Part shown: positions 2,612-10,198 of the stretch, one piece after another | Numbering within the stretch: position 1 is the first letter of the stretch | How the letters are laid out: each line of letters begins with the position of its first letter | Assembly: GCA_016930835.1 (NCBI GenBank) | Contig: JAFGGA010000137.1 | Coordinates: 1-40,200, forward strand | Source of the DNA: Deltaproteobacteria bacterium | GTDB lineage: Bacteria > Desulfobacterota > DSM-4660 > Desulfatiglandales > HGW-15 | Reading direction: 5' to 3' | DNA length: 40,200 nucleotides | Position numbers and translations under genes: made by a program | The notes under the pieces: model-generated | Seen by the model: the letters and a program-made list of their open reading frames with translations, nothing else | Told to the model about the DNA's origin: nothing | The model's database searches: none

Positions 2612-2699
2612 CCGTTACATTTTGTTTATCTTAAGGGCTTTTTGTTTTTTGATGAGGATGATCATCGCGATCGATTTGTAATATGGAGAAGATACGGTG

Positions 2700-3137
2700 A
2701 TGGACGATATCATGATCGATAGACGACTCAGCCCCTCAGAAAATTTATGGTGGGTCCTGGACCAGGAATGCCGGTGTAATTTTGTCATACGCTCCGGAAT
2801 CACCGGCCCTACCCGTGAAGAAGTCCTGCGTCAAGGCCTGAAAGCGGTTCAAGTCCGCCATCCCATGCTGCGGGTGCGCGTTGAAAGGGATGGTTGGAAT
2901 AGCCTCTCCTTTCAAACACATGGTGCACAAGGCATTCCGCTTCGTATTGAGGAGGCACCACCGAATGCCTGGATCAAACAAGCCGAAAAAGAGTTGCATG
3001 AAGAATTGCCAGTTAAAGACGGACCTTTGGTGAGGTGCACCCTGGTTCGTCATACCGACGAAGATCATACCGTCCTGATCGCCTTTCATCATGCCATTTT
3101 GGACGCTATCAGCGGATCATTCCCTATGGCGCCGTGA
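2700..3137 (+). pseudogene. Truncated condensation-type acyltransferase (N-terminal fragment)
   Basis: The frame encodes 145 residues. It matches the start of a condensation/alcohol-acetyltransferase-like domain: LSPSENLWWVLDQ near the N-terminus, an RHPMLRVRVE strand, and the catalytic HHAILDA (HHxxxD) near residue 131. Complete members have about 450 residues, so two thirds are missing. Removing one T near 3120 would extend the frame through SLWRREFFLDA to a stop near 3177, which suggests a frameshift plus loss of the 3' part. GGAG at 2685-2688 precedes the ATG at 2700; a GTG at 2697 is the alternative. It may once have acylated a product of the neighbouring cluster. Presumed non-functional. 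Confidence 0.7.
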
Positions 3138-3272
3138 ATTTTTTCTTGACGCGGTTTCAAGGATTGAGATTGTCTGAAGGAAAATGGAAAGTTCTTGAAA
3201 GTTTTCGAATAAGGTCGGAAAAAATTGAAAAGGCTTGGCCAAAAGGGAAATCATAATCATATTCATCGCAGC

Positions 3273-4064
3273 ATGATGAAATATGCCTACGAAGAACCGA
3301 AGCAGGCTTTGAGTGCTCGAATTCAAGCTCATCAGCAGTATAGTAATTTTAGCCTCCATGATTGGCTTAAAGGCTCTTTTGAACTCATGCCGGGTCATAG
3401 GGTTTTTGATCTGGGATGCGGGGATGGAAATTATACACGGCTTTTTTGGGATCAGATTCAGCCGAGTGGTTTTTATTTGGGATTGGATAAAAATATTGAT
3501 CTGATAAATGAGGCCAAAAATCGTTTCTCGGATCTTCCAAAAGATCAGGTTCAATTTGTCGTCCACGACTTTGACACCCCTCTACCTTATGGGTATGATT
3601 CTTTTGACTGGGTTTTTGCCATCTATTCGTTGTATTATGCTAAAGATAGTCTGAGGCTTATTTATGACATTAGAGAAAAAATGACCGCCAAGGGGTGCTT
3701 CGTGGTGATCGGGCCCGGTCCTGACAATATCAAAGATTTATGGGCCTTTAATTACCGGCTCATAGGTGAAAAGGGGGAACGGGAAAGGGTTCAGAGAATA
3801 GCGGGTGAATTTATTATCTCGTTTGAGCAATTTTTCCCTAAAAAAAATATACATTATGAAGAAATCAACAGTGAAATGCGATTTCCCACAGCCGAGGCGT
3901 TTGCTGAGTATTACTGGTCAACATTATTATGGCGTGAAAGCGTTCGAGATAAATCCTCTCAAGAAATTGATCAATATAAACTTGAAACCCTAAAACGAGC
4001 GGAATATATAATGGGTTTGCGAATCAAAAAACAGATCTCCGTCCTCATCGGTAAAAAAGGGTAA
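3273..4064 (+). CDS. Class I SAM-dependent methyltransferase
   Basis: The protein has 263 residues. Motif I VFDLGCGDG lies at residues 44-52, an acidic post-I segment YLGLDKN follows at about 68, and a DWVFAIYSLYY motif IV/V lies near 110. This is the usual Rossmann-fold layout for transfer of a methyl group from S-adenosylmethionine to a small molecule or peptide. The ATG at 3273 (or the adjacent one at 3276) is preferred over a TTG at 3225, since homologous-looking sequence starts there, although no strong ribosome binding site is visible. It is followed after 6 bp by the PIG-L gene and then by a small gene, so the three form an operon next to the peptide locus. The substrate is unknown. 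Confidence 0.85.
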   Translation: MMKYAYEEPKQALSARIQAHQQYSNFSLHDWLKGSFELMPGHRVFDLGCGDGNYTRLFWDQIQPSGFYLGLDKNIDLINEAKNRFSDLPKDQVQFVVHDFDTPLPYGYDSFDWVFAIYSLYYAKDSLRLIYDIREKMTAKGCFVVIGPGPDNIKDLWAFNYRLIGEKGERERVQRIAGEFIISFEQFFPKKNIHYEEINSEMRFPTAEAFAEYYWSTLLWRESVRDKSSQEIDQYKLETLKRAEYIMGLRIKKQISVLIGKKG

Positions 4065-4070
4065 TCAAAA

Positions 4071-4769
4071 ATGCACTTTGATCCGAAGACGCGTATATTG
4101 GTCGTTGCCGCACACCCGGATGACGAAATACTTGGATGTGGTGGAACCCTAGCGCGTGCAATAAGGAACGGTGCCTGCGTGGAGGTCATGTTTCTGAGTG
4201 AAGGGACTTCAGCGCGCTTTCCCCTCGGTGAATATGATTCTCAAGAATATCGTACGCAAGCGGCGACAAGGAGAAAGGAGGCGGAAGAGGCCCTTAAGGC
4301 TTTGGGCATCAATGAGATGTCATTCTGCGAAAGGCTGGGGTGTCAATTTGATACCTACCCAATCCTTTCGATCGTAAAGGATATCGAAAACAAGATGGAA
4401 TCCTATTCCCCCACCATGCTTTTTACTCACAATCCATTAGAAGTGAATATCGATCATCGCATTACTTATGAAGCGGTGGAAGCGGCTTGCCGTCCTGTTC
4501 ATGATTGGGTGCCCAAAGAAATATACCTCTTTGAGGTGGTGTGCAGCGGCAGTTGGACATTTCAATCGCGTTTTAGACCCAATGTTTTTGTTGACATTAG
4601 TGATGTCTGGGAAATAAAGATGAAGGCCTGGCAGTGTTATAAAGGAGAGCAAAAGCCCTATCCATTTCCGCGCTCCCAAATGGGGCAAGAGACCCTGGCC
4701 CGATACAGGGGTATTTCAGCAGGATTAGAGAAGGCCGAGGCCTTTTGTTTGGTGAGAAAAATCATATGA
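4071..4769 (+). CDS. PIG-L (LmbE) family zinc deacetylase
   Basis: The 232-residue protein starts with the zinc-binding AHPDDE motif at residues 14-19, followed by GCGGTLAR. The third metal ligand is in the NIDHRITYEAV segment near residue 125. PIG-L enzymes remove the N-acetyl group of GlcNAc-type sugars, for example in GPI, mycothiol, bacillithiol or glycosylated natural products. Its length is normal for the family. It sits six bases after the methyltransferase stop, and its own stop overlaps the next start (ATGA), indicating translational coupling. Combined with the glycosyltransferase-like domain of the convergent large protein, this hints at an amino-sugar on the final product. That is inference. 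Confidence 0.92.
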   Translation: MHFDPKTRILVVAAHPDDEILGCGGTLARAIRNGACVEVMFLSEGTSARFPLGEYDSQEYRTQAATRRKEAEEALKALGINEMSFCERLGCQFDTYPILSIVKDIENKMESYSPTMLFTHNPLEVNIDHRITYEAVEAACRPVHDWVPKEIYLFEVVCSGSWTFQSRFRPNVFVDISDVWEIKMKAWQCYKGEQKPYPFPRSQMGQETLARYRGISAGLEKAEAFCLVRKII

Positions 4770-4988: not shown

Positions 4989-7900
4989 TCAGATTACTGA
5001 ACGAATCTCTTCAGCGCTTATTTGGATGCCATCATCCAAAGGTAAGATCTTTACTTTTCCTCCATCGCCCTTCCGAACAAGATTTTCGATTCTTTCTTTG
5101 TAGACCGTAGCGAGGACATCAGGCATATCTCCGAAATTAGGAGACGTCTCTTCCTTTGAAAAAGATTTGCCTTTTTTGGGTAATTGTTTTTTTCCAAGAT
5201 CTGATTTGGATAAGTGTGAAGGTCTGCATAATGAAAGGTTGATTTTATGGGGTCTTATCCTTTTCAGCAGATTCATTAAGGTTTTGTAATCCTCTTCGGT
5301 TTGTGTGGGCAGCCCAAGGATCAGGTGCATGCAAAAAGATATACCGTATTCATGACATAACTGGCTCGATTTGAACAGGCTGTCAAATCTTTTTAAGAAG
5401 TCCTTTCTCCGGTAAAACAAACGATCCGTGTTAAACCAAATCTCCTGGGCTCCTATCTTTCCCAATTCTTCAGCCTTTCCGGATGAGAAAGAATCAGCTT
5501 GAGCATGAACAATAAAGCTTAGATTCAACGGCCTCTCCATTAGATTTTTTCTGAATTCAACAAGTCGGGGAACATAAGATGTAAAATAGTCATCCCATAT
5601 GATGACCTTATTTATTTCATATTTTACAATGGCCTTTTCAAGGGAATCTATCAGAATATTCAATGGAAATACCCTTAACTCAAGATGGTTTGTGGAGCAG
5701 GCCTTGAAATTATTTGAACAACCGATACTGGATAGGATCTCGTATATCCCCTTTTCTTTGATTATGGCCTTCTGCGTGTCGGAAAAATATCTTTGAAAAT
5801 AGACTGCGTCATGGGGATGTCTTTTCCCCTGGAGCACTTGGCCATTGAATCCTTTAATGTATTCCAGGATTTCATGGAAAATTCCGGTCCCATCTCCTTT
5901 TACAACGGCGTCAAAATAACCGCTTTCCTTTAGATCATCGGGCTGCAAGGTGGGATACCAGCCTCCAGCTACCACGTGGATCCCCAGTCTTTTCGCAACG
6001 CGTGCAACCAAAAAGGCTGGGTCGCGATGTGGAGCGAAAAAACTAATGGCCACGAGGTCGGGGCTGGACTCAACCAGCCGTTTCTCTATTGTATCTTCGT
6101 CATCCTTATCGGTATGATATCCGAAATCCACTTGAAAGCCTTTGGCTATGGCCATGGAGGCAAAGATAGATGCAGGATAGGAAAGAGAATCAAGGAAATA
6201 TGCAAAATATATTTTTTTTGTCTTGAATGCTTGGATAAACGGGCCTTTTTGAGATTGAGACTGCTCCAGAAAAAGCGTATTCAAACCGGGGATGGATGGT
6301 GGATTTCTAATGTCCTTATATCCGTATTCTTTTTGAAGGATTTTTTTTAGGCTCAATAAAAAGGTATGATTATTCTTTTTGCGAGGTTCGATTTTGTGGA
6401 AGATATGATATTCTTTTTGGAAAAAGATCTTGAAAAAAATAACCTGATCTCTCCATTTGACGTGGTGGTTGTCCATCAATGCCTTGATCTCGGGTATAAG
6501 TCCTTGTGGGATTATCGTATTCTGGGATTCAATTTTTTCAAATAAGAGATCCAAGGCCGTTTGCCTGATCTTTTTCCCCTTCATATCCAGGTTAACGATC
6601 GCTTCAACCAGAAACCGTTTCATCCGGGCACTTGGCGGTTTTTTATACTGGGCATTAATGGTTTTTCGCAGCATTTTCTTCAGGTAACCTCTCAATAGCC
6701 CTGATTGGGGTTGTTTTTTGCTAGCAGAGATTTGAATGAGCTCTTTCAAACGGTCGATTTCATTTTCTTGAAATGGATGGTTGCATTCCTTTTTGTAATG
6801 ATCGAGAATCGATGAAAAGGCCTGCTGATCGCCCATCCGGCTCATCTTTATCAAGATATCCCATTTGAATATGGGATCTTTTATGCTGGACACGACATGA
6901 ACTCCATCTCCAGAAAGTTCCATCGCTTTGACGGCGGAGGCGCTTTCCATGAGGTGGTCCGTAAGGTTGGGGATCCCGTTTTTTAATTCCTTGAATATTC
7001 GTTTGTATTGACCATTCAACAGAGAAAAGGATTTGCTCAAGTTAGGTTTTTCTTCCCTAAAAGAGGCGGCGTATAATTCATTAATGAGGTTTCTTTCCTT
7101 GGGATATTGGCAAAGATCCAGGAGCCGGTTTTTTAGGGCCCTGATATTTCGGTGGTTCCAAGAGAGTAATGCCATCACGAAAGGCTTTCCGATTAAGATG
7201 GCAGAGCTTAAGGCCATGCTTCCCGTAATAATGGGGGGAAGCCCGGAATAGGCTAAGAATCCGTTAAATAAAGGTGGCGGAAGAATAGGGCATTTGACGA
7301 TATAGATTTGTCGACTTTTTGCTGTTTCGGGAAGTGATTTATCCTCTTCTATAACGGTTATGAAATCCGGAAGATTTCGGCTGTTTAGGAAATAACATCC
7401 GAATAGGGCCGGTATGATTATCGCTGCACTTCGGTTTTGTTGAACAATATACTCCTTTAACCCATTGAGATACTGGCGTAACCCTTCATGGGCCTGGTAT
7501 TCATGCAAACCATAGGCAAACCCTATGAGTGCATGGTTCAAGTATTTTCCTTCCAGCAGACCTTTAAGTTTTTTCGTCCATCTTTGATTCTTGAATTCGG
7601 ATATCTTATCCAGTAAATGGTTCCGGATTTCCTCCTGGCTTTTATTTCGAAACAAGAGGGCGTCATAATCACTGTAAATCCCCGCATTATCTTTATCCAA
7701 GCCGGCAGAGGCTATTTGAAAGCCCTTGTGTTTGTATTCGATTTTCCCGGGCCCTTTAAACAGGCTCTCCAGATTCCCAAGGCCGGTCTGGATATAAATA
7801 ACGGTCTCACCGCTTGGTAGTATCGGTATCCTTTGATCTTTTAGATCGTTTCTGTGATAACCTTCGCGATGTTTGGAGGTGAGATGGATATAAAGGTCTA

Positions 7901-8210
7901 TCTTTGATGATGATGAATCGAATGAGTCAAGCGTGTGAATATGGATGGTTCCCTTGTTCAATCCTATTTTTTGGGGGAATCGATTTTGAATACCTAAAAT
8001 GGTCCGCAGGATATATAAGGACTTTTCGTTGACTAGGAAGGAGATCTTCCCATTATAGTCCAGCCTTTCAAAGAGATCTACGGCTGTGTTTAGGCATGGG
8101 GCAACGTCTCCTAAGCCGCCTCTTGTGTCTCTTGTCTCAAATAAAATGTGGCGGAATGGTGCTACTTTTTTCGTTAGGCTATGAGAAGGATGAATGATTG
8201 TTGATGACAT
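4989..8210 (-). CDS. Multidomain protein: glycosyltransferase-like N-terminus, helical middle, B12-binding-like and degenerate radical SAM domains
   Basis: The product has 1073 residues. Residues 1-370 resemble a GT-B glycosyltransferase: TRGGLGDVAPCL near 30 recalls the GGLGDV loop, and ITGSMALSSAILIGKPF near 330 recalls a nucleotide-sugar site. Residues 430-660 look all-helical. Residues 665-800 have a cobalamin-binding-type Rossmann pattern (SPDLVAISFFAP, HVVAGGWYPTL). A radical SAM-like barrel follows. Its cluster motif reads Cys831-SNN-Phe835-KA-Cys838, so the second of three cluster cysteines is replaced. The usual ESG segment is also altered (IWFNTDRLF), while FCMHLILGLPTQTEED is kept. 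It lies downstream of the leader-peptide gene, on the same strand. No ribosome binding site is obvious before the ATG at 8210. Likely a substrate-binding or glycosylating partner rather than an active radical enzyme. Confidence 0.75.
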   Translation of the reverse strand: MSSTIIHPSHSLTKKVAPFRHILFETRDTRGGLGDVAPCLNTAVDLFERLDYNGKISFLVNEKSLYILRTILGIQNRFPQKIGLNKGTIHIHTLDSFDSSSSKIDLYIHLTSKHREGYHRNDLKDQRIPILPSGETVIYIQTGLGNLESLFKGPGKIEYKHKGFQIASAGLDKDNAGIYSDYDALLFRNKSQEEIRNHLLDKISEFKNQRWTKKLKGLLEGKYLNHALIGFAYGLHEYQAHEGLRQYLNGLKEYIVQQNRSAAIIIPALFGCYFLNSRNLPDFITVIEEDKSLPETAKSRQIYIVKCPILPPPLFNGFLAYSGLPPIITGSMALSSAILIGKPFVMALLSWNHRNIRALKNRLLDLCQYPKERNLINELYAASFREEKPNLSKSFSLLNGQYKRIFKELKNGIPNLTDHLMESASAVKAMELSGDGVHVVSSIKDPIFKWDILIKMSRMGDQQAFSSILDHYKKECNHPFQENEIDRLKELIQISASKKQPQSGLLRGYLKKMLRKTINAQYKKPPSARMKRFLVEAIVNLDMKGKKIRQTALDLLFEKIESQNTIIPQGLIPEIKALMDNHHVKWRDQVIFFKIFFQKEYHIFHKIEPRKKNNHTFLLSLKKILQKEYGYKDIRNPPSIPGLNTLFLEQSQSQKGPFIQAFKTKKIYFAYFLDSLSYPASIFASMAIAKGFQVDFGYHTDKDDEDTIEKRLVESSPDLVAISFFAPHRDPAFLVARVAKRLGIHVVAGGWYPTLQPDDLKESGYFDAVVKGDGTGIFHEILEYIKGFNGQVLQGKRHPHDAVYFQRYFSDTQKAIIKEKGIYEILSSIGCSNNFKACSTNHLELRVFPLNILIDSLEKAIVKYEINKVIIWDDYFTSYVPRLVEFRKNLMERPLNLSFIVHAQADSFSSGKAEELGKIGAQEIWFNTDRLFYRRKDFLKRFDSLFKSSQLCHEYGISFCMHLILGLPTQTEEDYKTLMNLLKRIRPHKINLSLCRPSHLSKSDLGKKQLPKKGKSFSKEETSPNFGDMPDVLATVYKERIENLVRKGDGGKVKILPLDDGIQISAEEIRSVI

Positions 8211-8412
8211 GGGGACTGTCAGGTACGGCCGAATTTGTAGACTATGGCCTTTACATATTAACAGGTTTTTAAATAAAACATTGGCATTCGATTCATAGAG
8301 ACCCCTTCGATCACTTGGAAATCATTGGTTTTATTCTCCATAACTTTATTATTTTAAGTGATCATTCAGCTCAGCGAACAGACTGTGTTTTAATCTATAT
8401 GCCGTCGGGTGA

Positions 8413-8604
8413 TTACTTTTTAAAATAGTCTAGATTTGGATTGATAGGATCTACGAGTAAATCTGTTGTTTCAATCCCAGATGTCGTTGAAAACGGCCCT
8501 TCAAAAATCGCTGGCATTCTGGAAGCCCCTCCAAAAATTCTTTTCATGGTCTCATTGCTTATTTTTTCTCCCTTTGGCAAATCTTTAATTTTGATGCGTG
8601 CCAT
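8413..8604 (-). CDS. Putative RiPP precursor peptide with Gly-Gly leader
   Basis: The 63-residue peptide starts MARIKIKDLPKGEKISNETM and reaches FGG at residues 24-26. This basic/acidic amphipathic leader with KDLP..ISNETMKRI..GG is characteristic of ribosomally made, modified peptide precursors (Nif11/GG-leader type and the 'KIKDLP' precursors). Cleavage after Gly26 would leave a 37-residue core rich in Thr, Ser, Pro and Asp that contains no Cys, ends in YFKK and has two Phe-containing turns near PAIF and GPFS. A strong GGGAGG lies eight bases before the ATG at 8604, which excludes the longer frame to 8697. The gene is upstream of the 1073-residue protein (gap 202 bp) and divergent from an intact B12-binding radical SAM gene. 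No C39 peptidase transporter is in the window. Confidence 0.75.
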   Translation of the reverse strand: MARIKIKDLPKGEKISNETMKRIFGGASRMPAIFEGPFSTTSGIETTDLLVDPINPNLDYFKK

Positions 8605-8830
8605 GTTCAATTCCTCCCTTTTCCGTGATTTTTCTGTTGTTTTTGAAAAGCATCTCTTTTTTCTTATACTCGATGAAGAATTAATCAATTTAGTCATAGT
8701 GTATCAAATCCATCCTATTTGTCAATATTTCCTCTGGCATTATTTTTGAATTTCCATTATATCTTGAAATGGCTCTTATTACGTACCACACTGGATTTAA
8801 ATATTTTATTTTATAAAAATATTTTCAATC

Positions 8831-10198
8831 ATGCTTGTGCAAAACAGCAAGAAACGAAAAGCAAACTGTAAAGTGATGTTGATCCATCCTTCTAATTCCG
8901 CTTTTGTAGAACAGGAAGGTGATCGACCGCCTCTTGGGATCTTATATCTGGCATCCGTAATAGAAAAAATACCGGGAATAGAGATTCAGTTACTGGATCT
9001 GACCATAGAAGCCAAGGTTGATATTCGATATTTTTTGAGCACCTTTAAGCCCCAAATTGTAGGAATAACCATCACCACACCCCTTTTCCCCGAGGCCTCA
9101 AGGCTCGCTTCATTCATCAAGGAACTCCTTCCAAAGACCTTTGTCGTAGCCGGAGGCCCGCACCCCAGTTCTTTGCCTGAGGAAACCCTTCTTTCCAAGG
9201 GTTTCGATATTGTGGTCAGAGGAGAGGGCGAGGGAACCTTTAAAGAACTCGTTGAATGCCTTAAAGAAGGGGAGGATTTCAGATCGATCCCGGGAATTGC
9301 TTATATTGATAAAAATGAATTCATTCAGACCGCTGATCGGCCTCTCATTGAAGATCTGGATACGATACCATTTCCCGCCAGACACTTGCTCCCGATTCAT
9401 TCGTATCACATGACCATACTAGGTATTCCGGCAACACCGATCATTACATCCAGAGGATGCCCTTATCATTGTATTTTTTGTACAAAGGCCGTCTTCGGTC
9501 ATCAATACCGGACCCGAAGGCCTGAAAAAATCGTCGAAGAGATTGAGATGATTTTAGACGCTTATGGTATTCGTGGTTTCCTGTTCGTTGATGATACCTT
9601 TACGCTGGACTCTCATCGCACGCATCGTTTTTGCGACTCGATCATCGAAAAGAAAATGGACATTATCTGGCGTTGCTGGACCCGCTCCGATTGTGTTGAT
9701 CTCTATATGTTGGAAAAAATGTATCAAGCTGGTTGCAGAATCATCTGTTTTGGTGTTGAAAGCGGTGATCAGGATGTGCTCGATACGGCCCGAAAGGGTA
9801 CGACGGTTAAACGTAATCTAGAGGCCATACAAATGGCTCAATCAGTGGGCTTAACCGTAAAGGCCTTTTTTATGGTTGGGCTCCCGGGAGAAAATGAAAC
9901 AAGCATTGAAAAAACACTTAACTTTGTTGATAGGGCGCAACCGGATATGGCTGATTTTTATGTGGCCATTCCTTTTCCGAAAACTTTTCTTTCTGATCAC
10001 GTAGAGGAATTTGGAATTCGTGTTCTCACGCAAGATTGGTCAAAGTATTATCAAATAGGCCTTGAGGGTAAAGCACCTGAAATTGTACAAACTTCGGCCC
10101 TCAATCATCAAGAGGTGATCCAGGCCCAACAAAAACTTCAGTCTTGTTTTCAGCAGTTAAAAAAAAAGAAATTTACAGCCAAGGCAGCCATTTTTTAG
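8831..10198 (+). CDS. B12-binding radical SAM enzyme
   Basis: The 455-residue protein has an N-terminal cobalamin-binding domain (residues 13-150, with PPLGILYLASV, GITITTPLFPEA and VVAGGPHPSSLPEE). A complete radical SAM motif follows, Cys210-PYH-Cys214-IF-Cys217, with FVDDTFTLD, GVESGDQ and AFFMVGLPGE as later barrel motifs. Enzymes of this layout (BchE/P-methylase type) carry out C-methylation, ring formation or other radical chemistry on natural products. Its start region diverges from the leader-peptide gene across a 226-bp AT-rich spacer that should hold both promoters. The ATG at 8831 lacks a clear ribosome binding site; the ATG at 8876 is an alternative. The peptide is the natural candidate substrate by position. 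Confidence 0.9.
   Translation: MLVQNSKKRKANCKVMLIHPSNSAFVEQEGDRPPLGILYLASVIEKIPGIEIQLLDLTIEAKVDIRYFLSTFKPQIVGITITTPLFPEASRLASFIKELLPKTFVVAGGPHPSSLPEETLLSKGFDIVVRGEGEGTFKELVECLKEGEDFRSIPGIAYIDKNEFIQTADRPLIEDLDTIPFPARHLLPIHSYHMTILGIPATPIITSRGCPYHCIFCTKAVFGHQYRTRRPEKIVEEIEMILDAYGIRGFLFVDDTFTLDSHRTHRFCDSIIEKKMDIIWRCWTRSDCVDLYMLEKMYQAGCRIICFGVESGDQDVLDTARKGTTVKRNLEAIQMAQSVGLTVKAFFMVGLPGENETSIEKTLNFVDRAQPDMADFYVAIPFPKTFLSDHVEEFGIRVLTQDWSKYYQIGLEGKAPEIVQTSALNHQEVIQAQQKLQSCFQQLKKKKFTAKAAIF

Follow-up and report, generated by a model that had tools for sequence, protein, structure and literature searches.

A shared-leader RiPP precursor candidate between an intact and a cysteine-deficient B12-binding radical SAM-type protein in a deltaproteobacterial genome

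Introduction

Rosaritide-type RiPPs (graspetide group 21; MirA/MirB/MirC/PCAT, TIGR04500; PMC13097080) and the prochlorosins and Nif11-leader peptides (PMC10783134) are the described systems most similar to the locus reported here. Nothing closer than graspetides and prochlorosins was found in the papers searched, nor did any of them join the KIKDLP motif with a leader peptide. For rosaritide formation, the TIGR04500 protein MirC is required together with the synthetase, with which it copurifies (PMC13097080). The rosaritide type and the system described here each combine a PpiC/SurA-like partner encoded with a C39 peptidase exporter and a precursor in which a cut site for that exporter is predicted. 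In contrast to the rosaritide type, however, many precursors occur here with many maturase types, the exporter carries cNMP-binding domains, and the PpiC-like proteins score below the TIGR04500 cut-off. An ATP-grasp synthetase, as expected for a graspetide, was absent among the neighbours in the window and at contig C176 that were scanned against Pfam. With the prochlorosins and Nif11-leader peptides, the system has in common a conserved leader, a variable core, and precursors scattered over the genome; whereas the prochlorosins are served by one promiscuous LanM (PMC10783134), one leader is found here with many neighbouring enzymes. The Nif11 and NHLP leader models did not match the window peptide.

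Two further families resemble single components. The radical-SAM-modified Gly-Gly peptides of TIGR04149 (GG_sam_targ_CFB) also possess a short leader ending in I-x-G-G, but its sequence is a different one, and the window peptide remained below the membership threshold (12.1 vs 25 bits, E 0.14). ApyD and the TIGR03975 enzymes have the same order of B12-binding and radical SAM domains and the same CX3CX2C motif as the 455-residue enzyme of this locus, W455, which with 188 of 750 bits is nevertheless not a member of the ApyD family.

The window, i.e., the whole stretch of 40,200 nucleotides that was analyzed, belongs to a genome of 4.7 Mb on 224 contigs (G000). We propose, with a probability of roughly 0.7, that it harbors one spoke of a RiPP system organized as hub and spokes, in which W455 and a neighbouring 1073-residue protein (W1073) would modify the core of a small precursor that is exported by a C39 transporter.

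Results

The precursor gene and its surroundings

The following features were assigned in the window:

4989 to 8210, minus strand: gene of W1073 (1073 amino acids), with a B12-binding region at about residues 681–781 and a radical-SAM-like region at about residues 820–1000
8413 to 8604, minus strand: putative RiPP precursor gene (63 amino acids), with a leader that 17 further precursors from four genomes also carry and a core unrelated to theirs
8604 to 8527, minus strand: leader, 26 residues, ending in Gly-Gly
8526 to 8416, minus strand: core without Cys
8613 to 8619, minus strand: Shine–Dalgarno sequence AGGGAGG, 8 nt before the ATG, read directly from the sequence
8678 to 8725, minus strand: promoter TTGACA-16-TACACT (8725–8698), then the palindrome-like AAATTGATTAATT; together a weaker version of the common promoter element
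8831 to 10198, plus strand: gene of W455, a B12-binding radical SAM enzyme with an intact GCPYHCIFC motif, relatives BchE, HpnJ, ApyD, and PhpK

The small open reading frame (8604–8416 on the minus strand, stop codon 8415–8413) encodes the leader MARIKIKDLPKGEKISNETMKRIFGG followed by the core ASRMPAIFEGPFSTTSGIETTDLLVDPINPNLDYFKK. The leader conforms to the pattern MARIKIKDLP..IS..xMKxIxGG over its 26 residues. The gene is orientated divergently from that of W455 and lies 205 nt upstream of the co-oriented W1073 gene (8210–4989); no terminator-like site was found between the two. W455 and W1073 are thus encoded on either side of the precursor, each within 230 nt. A preliminary description of the locus had proposed a 63-residue peptide with a strong ribosome binding site and a Cys-free core, divergent from an intact B12-binding radical SAM enzyme and upstream of a large B12/radical SAM-like protein. 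The reading frame and its leader, which is found again at five further G000 loci, bear out the peptide. The ribosome binding site and the composition of the core stand as described, and W455 has both Pfam domains together with the CX3CX2C motif. The position of the large protein was likewise correct, but its radical SAM motif is not intact (Phe835, see below).

Two further regions of the window were annotated. An NRPS-type condensation domain fragment of 146 amino acids (2697–3137, plus strand; Pfam 1e-13) is probably a remnant. Genes for a methyltransferase and a PIG-L deacetylase (3225–4769, plus strand) are convergent with the W1073 gene.

A conserved leader with unrelated cores

A single-sequence search detected the leader at the five other loci in G000 with E-values from 3e-7 to 0.15. 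These unlinked paralogues are located on contigs C176 (three), C186, and C3. A profile built from the six G000 leaders recovered those six at 3.7e-17 to 8.8e-15, scores that are partly circular because the same leaders built the profile; no further sequence scored better than an E-value of 1. When 395 genomes of the phylum were searched, G037 of the same order was the sole additional genome with a clear leader match, and within the order the family was present in 2 of 85 genomes; its distribution is therefore sporadic. Using one leader pattern on 84,980 named genomes, five loci were found in G463 (MAG Deltaproteobacteria Meg22_810_Bin_229) and one in the Elusimicrobia MAG G464, a count that is a lower bound because of the single peptide pattern. 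Whole-genome profile searches yielded eight full precursors, one partial precursor, and decayed copies in G463, and three precursors in G464. The leader was not found in plasmids.

Over 18 precursors, the leaders were on average 62% identical in pairwise comparison and the cores 13%, the latter equal to the value for shuffled cores (13%), and the leader ended in GG in all 18. Compared with the paralogue C176a, the leader codons of the window peptide displayed 16 synonymous and seven non-synonymous differences. Leader/core contrast and synonymous excess together show, at the level of residues and codons, that selection acts on the leader as a protein. The conserved leader and variable core are those of RiPP precursors in general, and the RiPP reading of the preliminary description is strongly supported by the existence of homologues with such an extreme contrast. 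Judging from these comparisons and from the single peptide-cutting exporter of the genomes (see below), the small open reading frame very probably encodes a genuine precursor whose product is modified and exported.

A common promoter element and decayed precursors

Upstream of many leader-family genes, TTGACA is followed after about 20 bases by (A)TTGATCAAT(A/T)T or ATTAATCAATAT. This pattern was found nine times in three genomes (12.5 Mb) and not at all in the reversed control. In seven cases a leader-family gene follows closely downstream, and in two of these cases that gene is a decayed copy. As the pattern was drawn from the same upstream regions, its rarity elsewhere is the informative point. 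The strict pattern missed the promoter in the window, in which one box base differs and the spacing is longer. A near-match to the operator palindrome within the methyltransferase gene of the window (3964–3977) was no more than chance expects and was discarded. Decayed precursors, disrupted by a stop codon or a lost start, were observed at L101 (4673–4512, minus strand) and L099 (635–815, minus strand), still behind the common promoter element. Such decayed copies suggest precursor turnover.

One exporter and SurA/PpiC-like proteins

Exactly one Peptidase_C39 protein is encoded in each of G000, G037, and G463. This exporter comprises approximately 1035 amino acids, and in G000 Pfam identified cNMP-binding, C39, ABC membrane, and ATPase domains, the same set as in the exporter of the Elusimicrobia locus. 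The G000 protein shares 75% identity with that of G463, and identity to G037 is 60%. Where contigs allow, it is encoded together with HlyD, PpiC-like, and SurA-like proteins: the gene order in G463 is exporter (ABC), HlyD, PpiC-like, SurA-like, and in G037 the exporter gene lies next to those of PpiC, SurA, and the precursor. In G000, the genes of exporter and HlyD are located near the end of contig C218 and PpiC and SurA begin contig C176, so these two contigs may be neighbours; the exporter and the window precursor are on different contigs. With a leader ending in Gly-Gly and a C39-ABC exporter in the genome, cleavage after the double glycine is predicted.

SurA/PpiC-like proteins are also encoded beside precursors. 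On the TIGR04500 model the PpiC-like proteins scored 83.9 and 101.8 bits, a clear similarity that stays below the membership cut-off of 180. Because of this resemblance to MirC, it is plausible, by analogy, that they present the leader.

Enzymes beside the other precursors

The enzymes encoded next to the leader-family precursors differ from locus to locus. The C176 locus encodes one YcaO and one Methyltransf_28 protein, and L038 a SPASM radical SAM protein with a related YcaO. Each of the two precursors of L041 is followed by a SPASM-type radical SAM gene. Three B12-radical SAM proteins with intact motifs and a YcaO make L039 the second B12-radical SAM locus of the leader family. At C3 and C341, a methyltransferase adjoins the precursor. 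The YgiQ-type radical SAM gene at C186 is convergent with the precursor and probably unrelated to it. Among the neighbours of the G463 precursors C104, C301a, and C301b, read by eye, no maturase was recognised. The leader is therefore common, and the predicted chemistry differs by locus. Since the relatives adjoin other maturase types or none that is recognised, B12-radical SAM proteins are not a defining feature of the peptide family. The preliminary description, which saw a locus built on such proteins and looked for conserved leaders and variable cores beside the same two enzymes, thus applies to this locus by position, and its leader/core contrast recurs throughout; as a characterization of the family it fails, YcaO, SPASM, and methyltransferase proteins being encoded elsewhere.

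The precursors that stand alone, with no maturase recognised beside them (L037/L102, L040, L092), would also fit an unmodified double-glycine peptide, either bacteriocin or signal, whose B12/radical SAM neighbours act elsewhere, and leader plus exporter would suffice for a class-II bacteriocin-like pathway. We consider this explanation unlikely: radical SAM genes are next to the precursor at four of the approximately 11 loci in G000 and G463, with YcaO or methyltransferases at three more, and the window precursor is directly upstream of W1073 in the same orientation. A modified peptide remains the preferred reading.

W455 and W1073

W455 showed significant similarity to the Pfam families B12-binding (1.5e-21) and Radical_SAM (4.8e-24). 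Its start codon is uncertain, as there is no clear ribosome binding site and Met16 is possible. The highest NCBIfam scores were obtained for BchE, HpnJ, and, third, ApyD, all below the respective cut-offs. On TIGR03975 (RiPP radical SAM C-methyltransferase) the score was 122.7 vs 281.85 bits, below membership. Among the leader-bearing genomes, the best relative (G037 C1, 35%) is encoded outside a RiPP context, and the RiPP-linked relative is only 33% identical. From its position, W455 is the probable locus-specific maturase of the window precursor.

W1073 matched the B12-binding family of Pfam (1.7e-9), whereas Radical_SAM reached only 0.003. Its motif reads C831-SNN-F835-KA-C838, with Phe835 (TTC) at the position of the central CX3CX2C cysteine. 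All three cysteines are conserved in homologues aligned in register, so W1073 is, judging from this alignment, probably not a radical enzyme. In this draft genome Phe835 may be a sequencing error, for which one base (TTC for TGC) suffices. We regard W1073 as a probable partner protein, assigned to the window peptide by its position.

The C-terminal half of W1073 aligns with B12-radical SAM proteins. Neither the 395 phylum genomes nor plasmids contained a homologue of residues 1 to about 650. For residues 1–420 no Pfam family was found even at E 10, a comparison of the N-terminal part with PDB sequences gave no informative match (best E 0.07), and its single-sequence AlphaFold2 model was unusable (mean pLDDT 36). 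A glycosyltransferase reading of this part, considered because of a resemblance to EarP-like GT-B proteins, found no support from Pfam, PDB, or homologues and was not used, and glycosylation of the core, which the preliminary description had left open, is unsupported, given the lack of a Pfam family in residues 1–420. The core may undergo C-methylation or carbon–carbon crosslinking, both considered in the same description.

The closest relative of the C-terminal half is G252_536 (29%), which adjoins the W455-like G252_540 (26%); at this locus (L105, contig C7 of G252, 5532–8761, minus strand) the two adjacent B12-radical SAM genes lie in a sugar/polysaccharide-type cluster. That W455 and W1073 act as a pair on a lipid or glycan, with the precursor present by chance or using enzymes in trans, would agree with this arrangement and with BchE and HpnJ, both non-peptide enzymes, as top matches of W455, but is an unlikely reading, since both genes flank the precursor so closely, intact B12-radical SAM genes recur at the leader-family locus L039, and the third-best match, ApyD, is a RiPP enzyme.

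Leader-like tags on other proteins

In G463, a DNA search with the pattern M-[AP]-x-[ILV]-x-[ILV]-x-[DN]-[LIV] for protein starts gave six matches in the whole genome, none of them outside the leader-family loci. Three belong to precursors and one to a Phd/YefM-like protein, while the remaining two are the N termini of a YcaO and a B12-radical SAM protein. A stretch of 5 kb holds three of these matches, and the reversed control gave zero. Other genomes yielded one or two matches each, mostly unrelated, so the evidence for the tag comes from G463. The Pfam domain of two Phd/YefM-like proteins begins at residue 11, after the tag; the similarity of the tagged B12-radical SAM protein to W455 begins at residue 38. 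W455 and W1073 themselves are without a leader-like tag. Leader-like starts were noted at L099 (G463 C2; 12652, 15153, 10339), L014 (1381 and 5047), and L106. The tagged proteins are B12-radical SAM, YcaO, and Methyltransf_28 maturases and a Phd/YefM-like protein of 64 amino acids, with the tag sequences MARIVIKDI, MARLQIKDLP, MPRIQIVDL, and MAKIKIADLE. The Phd-like protein is present in three leader-bearing genomes. The tags on maturases are a lead and not a result.

Discussion

The window is best described as one spoke of a RiPP system with shared leader and exporter, because both are common to the loci, whereas the enzymes differ by locus. In the proposed sequence of events, SurA/PpiC-like proteins would play a part comparable to that of MirC in rosaritide formation, either binding the common leader or presenting it. 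W455 would then modify the window core together with W1073, a B12/radical-SAM-like partner presumed to be catalytically dead, and the C39 exporter would cut after the Gly-Gly and secrete the core. Radical C-methylation or another carbon-centred change would be the likeliest chemistry on the Cys-free core. More tentatively, as a possibility that we would not favor at present, the leader might serve as a single address that unites the promoter, a SurA/PpiC hub, unrelated maturases, docking of some tagged maturases and of a Phd/YefM-like protein to that hub, one C39 exporter, and a cysteine-deficient W1073 partnering W455.

If this reading of the locus is right, an active B12/radical-SAM enzyme with a cysteine-deficient neighbour of the same type would constitute an unusual enzyme pair, and a role of PpiC/SurA-like partners in RiPP maturation would become directly testable. 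The family would represent a natural plug-and-play leader, in which one address and one export route serve at least four unrelated modification chemistries, and a search for the leader alone would help to find new peptide chemistry.
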